Source: Candidatus Fermentithermobacillaceae bacterium (lineage in GTDB: Bacteria; Bacillota; Sulfobacillia; Fermentithermobacillales; Fermentithermobacillaceae). From it: 53,697 nucleotides of DNA. The translations under genes and the position numbers were made by a program. Position 1 is the stretch's first letter, and each line of letters starts with the position of its first letter. Positions 24,112 to 24,974 of the stretch are shown in pieces. Location: positions 1 to 53,697 of the forward strand of contig JAGPNE010000010.1 of NCBI GenBank assembly GCA_018052455.1, given 5' to 3'. The notes below the pieces were generated by a model. That model searched no databases and was not told the origin of the DNA. It saw only the letters and a list, made by a program, of their open reading frames with translations.

Positions 24112-24157
24112 CCGATTCGGCAATGCTTCGCGATATATCCTGCTCAATATGAGGATG

Positions 24158-24457
24158 CTACTTCTCTTGAGAATTTATTACCCGAATGTATTGTACTTCA
24201 CCTGGCATTACTAGACCCAGCTTCTCCCGGGCGACTTTTTCTATATACTCTTCAGTTCTCATCGTTTCGATTTGCTGTTCCAGGGCGCTATTGGATATGC
24301 GCAAATGATTGATCTCATCTTGCGCCTCCTCGATTCGTCTCCTTATTCGGACGACTTCGGTCTGCCTTATCGCGAAACTAACTACGAGGAGCACAACGAC
24401 CAACCATAGACCAGTAAGCTTAATAGTCCGTGGTTTCTTCTGTCTGTTGCTTGGCAT
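24158..24457 (-). CDS. divIC: Septum formation initiator DivIC/FtsB family
   Basis: A single-pass membrane protein of the division septum that forms a complex with FtsL and DivIB. 99 residues: a short basic cytosolic N-terminus, one membrane helix (about 16-33, LWLVVVLLVVSFAI), then an extracytoplasmic coiled coil (RRRIEEAQDEINHLR to EQQIETMRTEEYIEK) and the conserved end VAREKLGLVMPGE. The ATG has GAGGAGG upstream, inside the end of the preceding gene. It follows the HTH gene by 3 bases and is read against the surrounding block, unlike in B. subtilis. Confidence 0.93.
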   Translation of the reverse strand: MPSNRQKKPRTIKLTGLWLVVVLLVVSFAIRQTEVVRIRRRIEEAQDEINHLRISNSALEQQIETMRTEEYIEKVAREKLGLVMPGEVQYIRVINSQEK

Positions 24458-24460
24458 GGA

Positions 24461-24691
24461 CTATTCCTCCTCAACCTCATCACCGCCGAACAGATTCAGA
24501 GGATCGCCTGAAATGACAATAACTACCTCATAGCCCTTGGTTTTTGCCCTGTTGTACAAAGTGGCGACCGTAGATTGGCTCAGCCCCAGCTTGTCCGCTA
24601 TCTTTTGTGTCGAGTAGCCGGTTTCTTTCAAGACTACTACTTGTCGCTCCCTAAAACTCAGTTTTTCGGCTCCCCGGATTTCGATTTGCAC
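24461..24691 (-). CDS. Small helix-turn-helix protein (sigma-4/Tfx-like)
   Basis: A 76-residue protein. SFRERQVVVLKETGYSTQKIADKLGLSQSTVATLYNRAK is a helix-turn-helix like those of sigma region 4 or the archaeal Tfx family. An acidic tail (GGDEVEEE) follows a short beta-like VVIVISGDPL segment. It starts at GTG 24691 and lies directly upstream of divIC, 3 bases apart, so the two form an operon. A cluster of DnaA-type boxes lies just upstream of its start. Its targets are unknown; control of division genes is an inference. Confidence 0.8.
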   Translation of the reverse strand: MQIEIRGAEKLSFRERQVVVLKETGYSTQKIADKLGLSQSTVATLYNRAKTKGYEVVIVISGDPLNLFGGDEVEEE

Positions 24692-24706
24692 AGTTTTTCC
24701 CCCGGG

Positions 24707-24738
24707 TTATCCACAAGTTATGCACAGATTGTGGACAA
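24707..24738. promoter_or_regulatory. DnaA-box cluster upstream of the HTH-divIC operon
   Basis: A perfect DnaA box TTATCCACA (24707-24715) is followed by TTATGCACA (24718-24726), one mismatch, in the same orientation, and then TGTGGACAA (24730-24738), a one-mismatch box on the other strand. They begin 16 bases upstream of the GTG start at 24691. The site could let DnaA control the operon or act as a titration site. The rest of the gap to 24974 holds no gene. Confidence 0.65.
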
Positions 24739-24974
24739 AATTTGTACAAATCTATTTTACACCAGAATTCTGGTTTCTGCTAGGTAGAATTCGGCACAAT
24801 TGGACTCAAACGAGCGGTATCTCTGCGGTTTAAGTGGAATGTTATCAGGAAAAGCGATAGAATGGTAATTAGATTGTATGGTGGTAGTAAGTATTGACAT
24901 AGGCACGCGCTTGCTAATATTCTGAGAATGTAATTAGACGCCTATGAAGAATGTCACTAGGTCTGGTTTGTTTG

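Follow-up and report, generated by a model that had tools for sequence, protein, structure and literature searches.

An 11-bp-phased array containing DnaA boxes precedes a conserved HTH-divIC operon in Candidatus Fermentithermobacillaceae and related bacteria

The DnaA boxes in front of the HTH-divIC operon of a Candidatus Fermentithermobacillaceae bacterium account for three of the four units that make up a 44-bp, 11-bp-periodic array (24706–24749). Positions refer to the window, i.e., the whole stretch of 53,697 nucleotides that was analyzed, which corresponds to contig C28 of the draft genome (1.54 Mb). The array, its 11-bp phase and its position at the promoter are conserved; it is linked to the HTH gene, and in other lineages it is independent of DnaA boxes. 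We consider it moderately probable that the boxes belong to a promoter-operator module in which the array acts as the HTH protein's own operator (autoregulation), with DnaA probably binding as well. Judged from these sequence comparisons, the array more likely serves as the site to which the HTH regulator itself binds than as a direct connection between replication and division. A nearly invariant regulator, for which we found no description, is tied here to divIC and to one distinctive operator, and, since the same operator contains DnaA boxes in some lineages and lacks them in others, the operon provides natural pairs for comparison.

The HTH-divIC operon and its genomic context

The operon is encoded on the reverse strand and starts with the gene of a small HTH regulator (24461–24691; 76 aa, GTG start, strand-HTH-strand), which is separated by 3 bp from divIC (24158–24457), a septum formation initiator gene whose product belongs to the DivIC family (Pfam PF04977, 56.9 bits; cut-off 28.9). 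This agrees with the preliminary description, which had placed a tiny HTH gene three bases from divIC with the boxes upstream of it. Its remark that the pair is inverted relative to a conserved block is likewise borne out by the window's gene order, where HTH-divIC opposes mazG-hup-rqcP; in other groups these genes are collinear. DivIC directly follows the HTH protein in 86 of 90 loci and in 78 of 80 further loci, indicating that the operon is old.

The gene order in Bacillus subtilis is mfd-yabN-yabO-yabP-yabQ-divIC-yabR. Most relatives have a similar arrangement, which differs from that of B. subtilis by an extra HTH gene in front of divIC and, in the gene order of the window, by the inversion of HTH-divIC. 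Most relatives also carry 1–2 kb between rqcP and HTH-divIC, probably yabP/yabQ; this stretch is missing in the window (24112–24157), where rqcP and divIC are convergent neighbors. The acidic tail of the HTH protein (GAGGAGGAA; 24464–24472, reverse strand) might be encoded by bases that also act as the Shine-Dalgarno sequence of divIC, an overlap that suggests translational coupling of HTH and divIC.

The HTH protein is almost invariant, with 22 invariant columns across 38 relatives, and its gene is found in one copy per genome in 119 of the 299 sampled genomes of the phylum. Profile and fold searches relate the protein to region 4 of sigma-70 factors and to LuxR/GerE HTHs (PF08281, 36.3 bits; PF00196, 31.5 bits; both above cut-off), and its AlphaFold2 model (pLDDT 84) consists of a single HTH between two strands. 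A function as a sigma factor, based on region 4 (PF08281/PF04545), was rejected: the protein lacks region 2 and comprises only a single HTH of 76 aa. Sequence and fold searches of the PDB returned generic HTH folds only (best fold E-value 0.015), and a literature search for an HTH protein linked to divIC retrieved nothing relevant.

DnaA boxes upstream of the operon

Three DnaA boxes spanning 32 bp are located 16–47 bp upstream of the HTH gene. Compared with TTATNCACA, the boxes TTATCCACA (24707–24715, forward strand) and TTATGCACA (24718–24726, forward strand) are perfect matches, and the inverted box TTGTCCACA (24730–24738, reverse strand) has one mismatch. The preliminary description had reported one perfect and two one-mismatch boxes; the cluster and its 32-bp span are as it stated, but two boxes are perfect and one carries a single mismatch, as TTATGCACA deviates only if TTATCCACA is used as a strict consensus.

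Boxes as such are enriched neither in the whole window (48 one-mismatch boxes compared to 41.5 expected) nor in the genome (43 perfect boxes compared to 52 matches of a reversed control pattern). Pairs of perfect boxes less than 20 bp apart are expected ∼0.02 times genome-wide, as estimated from box density, and two such pairs exist, one in the HTH-divIC leader and one upstream of dnaA (C5:33304/33316). An oriC or second origin at the locus was rejected, as dnaA and a separate set of boxes are found on a different contig. The distance between dnaA and the operon is 57 kb in relative G004 and 57–210 kb in four relatives with near-closed chromosomes. Conservation in close relatives, which the preliminary description had left to be checked, is indeed observed: the box at 24707 is perfect in 13 of 13 family genomes and the one at 24718 in 8 of 13. 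DnaA boxes are conserved in about half of all lineages, whereas other lineages have the array but no boxes.

The boxes are part of an 11-bp-phased array

On the gene strand, the leader reads as four consecutive 11-bp units, TTGTACAAATT, TTGTCCACAAT, CTGTGCATAAC and TTGTGGATAAC, a periodic arrangement that the preliminary description had missed. Unit −1 (24706–24716, TTGTGGATAAC) contains the perfect box at 24707, unit −2 (24717–24727, CTGTGCATAAC) the box at 24718, and unit −3 (24728–24738, TTGTCCACAAT) the inverted one-mismatch box; unit −4 (24739–24749, TTGTACAAATT) has no DnaA box and is in 11-bp phase with units −3 to −1.

The regions upstream of HTH in 90 loci display strong identity at lags of 11 and 22, whereas a control region gives no signal; the excess identity at lag 11 amounts to 0.137±0.008 upstream of HTH and to about −0.02 in the control region. 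A unit model learned from the HTH loci has the consensus TTGTNNANAA with a nearly fixed TGT. The common feature of the arrays is a TGT every 11 bp, and positions 5 and 8 of the unit, which are fixed in a DnaA box, vary. This model scores 31.0 per three units, compared to at most 7.3 upon retraining on dinucleotide shuffles and 8–10 on other regions of the same loci. A total of 87 distinct loci carry the array upstream of HTH. Among 73 held-out loci, i.e., loci not used for training, 72 lie above the 99th percentile of shuffles.

An origin of the box cluster by chance, in a leader that is AT-rich, would fit with the chance-level occurrence of single one-mismatch boxes in the window. However, conservation in 159 loci already refutes this explanation, and the 11-bp phase and the held-out validation also oppose it, leaving it virtually no probability.

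The array follows the HTH gene and not divIC

The HTH loci comprise 538,760 bases, and all above-threshold arrays in them are located no further than about 220 bp upstream of HTH. Three loci whose HTH gene has no divIC behind it (L050, L070 and L075) retain the array, and no array was detected at divIC in six genomes for which the search did not find HTH. Some of the genomes without a detected HTH are drafts of 70–85% completeness, so that its absence is less certain in these. Regulation specific to divIC was rejected based on both observations. The array is thus located at the promoter of the HTH gene and accompanies this gene, as an autoregulated operator would. A search of 61 genomes with a strict three-unit pattern yielded 14 matches, 12 of them at HTH; the other two are DnaA-box arrays in one genome. 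The corresponding two-unit pattern gave 21 matches, of which 17 belong to HTH loci and two lie near dnaA/rnpA, whereas the remaining two are unexplained. Based on these array searches, a wider regulon was rejected. In genome G037 (L137), the HTH match is split in two frames and the upstream array is present, indicating either a degenerate gene or a sequencing error.

Another regulator, such as Spo0A or an unknown factor, might also bind the array. A sigma-H-like promoter would suit a transition-state gene, and the Spo0A core TGTCGAA is matched by a small number of units. We consider this improbable since the close association of the array with the HTH gene is not accounted for by any other factor and since TGNCGAA occurs in just 4 of 603 units, which led us to reject Spo0A boxes.

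Arrays with and without DnaA boxes

Among 160 loci, 69 carry no perfect box and 23 no box even at one mismatch within 170 bp. These 23 box-free loci still show a lag-11 identity of 0.099±0.010, and 17 of them keep TGT-N8-TGT-N8-TGT, compared to 0.04 expected. The dnaA loci of nine genomes with box-free arrays all contain at least one perfect box, and seven of the nine contain two or more. Thus, the specificity of DnaA is not visibly changed in these genomes, and it is the array that has changed. Apart from two divergent clades, array units show no visible co-variation with the HTH recognition helix.

Conversely, the DnaA words TGTGNATAA (unit −1) and TTRTNCACA (unit −3) are 2–2.6-fold enriched over column shuffles in the 160 loci and in a thinned set of 34 representatives with HTH identity below 75%, although shared ancestry may still inflate this enrichment. 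None of 2000 shuffles reached the observed DnaA-word count in the thinned set. The DnaA boxes in the array hence do not look accidental.

DnaA itself could be the main ligand, with the strong box anchoring a cooperative array that represses or times HTH-divIC and thereby couples replication state to division. In line with this, the leader contains three boxes with 2-bp gaps, two of them perfect and the third nearly so, its anchor box is kept in all 13 family genomes, DnaA words exceed what column composition predicts, the only other close perfect-box pair of the genome is the dnaA-proximal one, the operon lies 57–210 kb from dnaA in the four near-closed relatives, and the ftsL promoter of B. 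subtilis is bound by DnaA (PMC8203912). Nevertheless, we regard DnaA as main ligand as rather unlikely, because 23 loci keep the array without DnaA boxes while the tested genomes have canonical boxes at dnaA, because unit positions 5 and 8 are variable, and because the array goes with HTH and not with divIC. The direct coupling of replication initiation to septum formation suggested in the preliminary description is supported in part, by the conserved boxes and the enriched DnaA words, and may be one output of the module; the array, however, is associated with HTH and persists without boxes.

The latter two observations, together with the canonical boxes in the respective dnaA regions, point to the HTH protein as main ligand. 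DnaA, in turn, is probably a second, lineage-dependent ligand, as indicated by the enriched DnaA words, the box present in all 13 family genomes and the oriC-like 2-bp gaps. As two units of the window are also perfect DnaA boxes, with 2 bp between them, DnaA can probably occupy these sites in this lineage. Counting against autoregulation by the HTH protein as the best reading, neither the DnaA-word enrichment nor the 2-bp-gap layout is predicted by a site for HTH only. The lack of visible co-variation between array units and the recognition helix outside the two divergent clades, and the poor consensus match of the window's promoter elements, likewise weaken this reading.

DnaA-regulated promoters and box clusters are known from sda, ywlC and dnaA of B. 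subtilis, and low-affinity arrays from E. coli oriC. The array resembles these in its promoter-proximal 9-bp boxes with 2-bp gaps and in the combination of a perfect anchor with weaker boxes; in contrast to them, it retains the 11-bp TGT repeat even in lineages that lack DnaA boxes, and it is tied to one HTH gene. In E. coli oriC, low-affinity DnaA 9-mer sites are likewise separated by 2 bp (PMC6727663). In the literature searched, no paper mentions both divIC and a DnaA box.

A putative sigma-H-like promoter and a model for autoregulation

Upstream of the array, most loci carry GCAGGAATT-N11-GTAGAAT or a close variant, resembling the Bacillus sigma-H consensus RNAGGAWWW / RNNGAATWW (PMC8510167). 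A promoter score of at least 17 of 21 is reached by 83% of loci compared to 16% of shuffles, and the spacer is 11 in 60 of 72 cases. Family relatives score 17–21 of 21, and in most of them the −10 element reads GTAGAAT and precedes the array by 4 bp. The window contains a position-conserved, putative sigma-H-like −10 element, GTAAAAT (24754–24760, reverse strand; one mismatch to RNNGAAT), and a putative, degenerate −35 element, GCAGAAACC (24772–24780, reverse strand), where relatives read GCAGGAATT. Most relatives share the two elements and the 11-bp spacer with sigma-H (Spo0H) promoters of Bacillus; in contrast to these promoters, the window copy GCAGAAACC-N11-GTAAAAT is degenerate and matches the consensus poorly. 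Sigma-H is encoded in the genome (358 bits; cut-off 295), and the HTH-divIC operon is probably sigma-H-driven. A perfect 12-bp palindrome, CCAGAATTCTGG, is found between the putative −35 and −10 elements (24762–24773) and is absent from the same-genus relative L004.

Based on the position of the −10 element, RNA polymerase with a sigma-H-like factor would initiate at about 24747, where the array begins. The array would then cover about +1 to +42, a position in which a protein bound to it would obstruct transcription. The 11-bp phase would place the units on one side of the helix, allowing several HTH molecules to bind there and to repress the operon that encodes them, which would keep HTH and DivIC levels low and buffered. 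In this lineage, DnaA could probably occupy the same sites and add an input from the replication state. The proposed operator resembles those of autoregulated small HTH repressors with tandem operators as a general class, whose repeats are likewise in helical phase and extend across the transcription start of the operon encoding the repressor; our system differs from this class by an uncharacterized strand-HTH-strand family, by the operon linkage to divIC and by an array found almost only at its own gene.

A further, unlikely and more speculative possibility is that HTH and DnaA recognize and compete for the same phased sites, making HTH a dedicated DnaA-box competitor. If so, one 80-bp switch would read sigma-H activity, DnaA state and the level of HTH itself to control a divisome protein, and HTH would link replication initiation, entry into sporulation and septum assembly.

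A few matches were observed away from HTH. In genome G009, tandem DnaA boxes spaced by 11 bp are present at two further loci (L122, 1500–1541, TTATCCACAGGTTACTCACAGGTTATCCACAGATTATTCACT; L127, around 1500), which are perhaps plasmid or phage origins. Two-unit matches away from HTH and dnaA are located near a GerMN-like ORF (L160, 1500–1521; genome G019) and upstream of a MATE-like transporter ORF (L161, 815–836; genome G020), and represent possible further targets.
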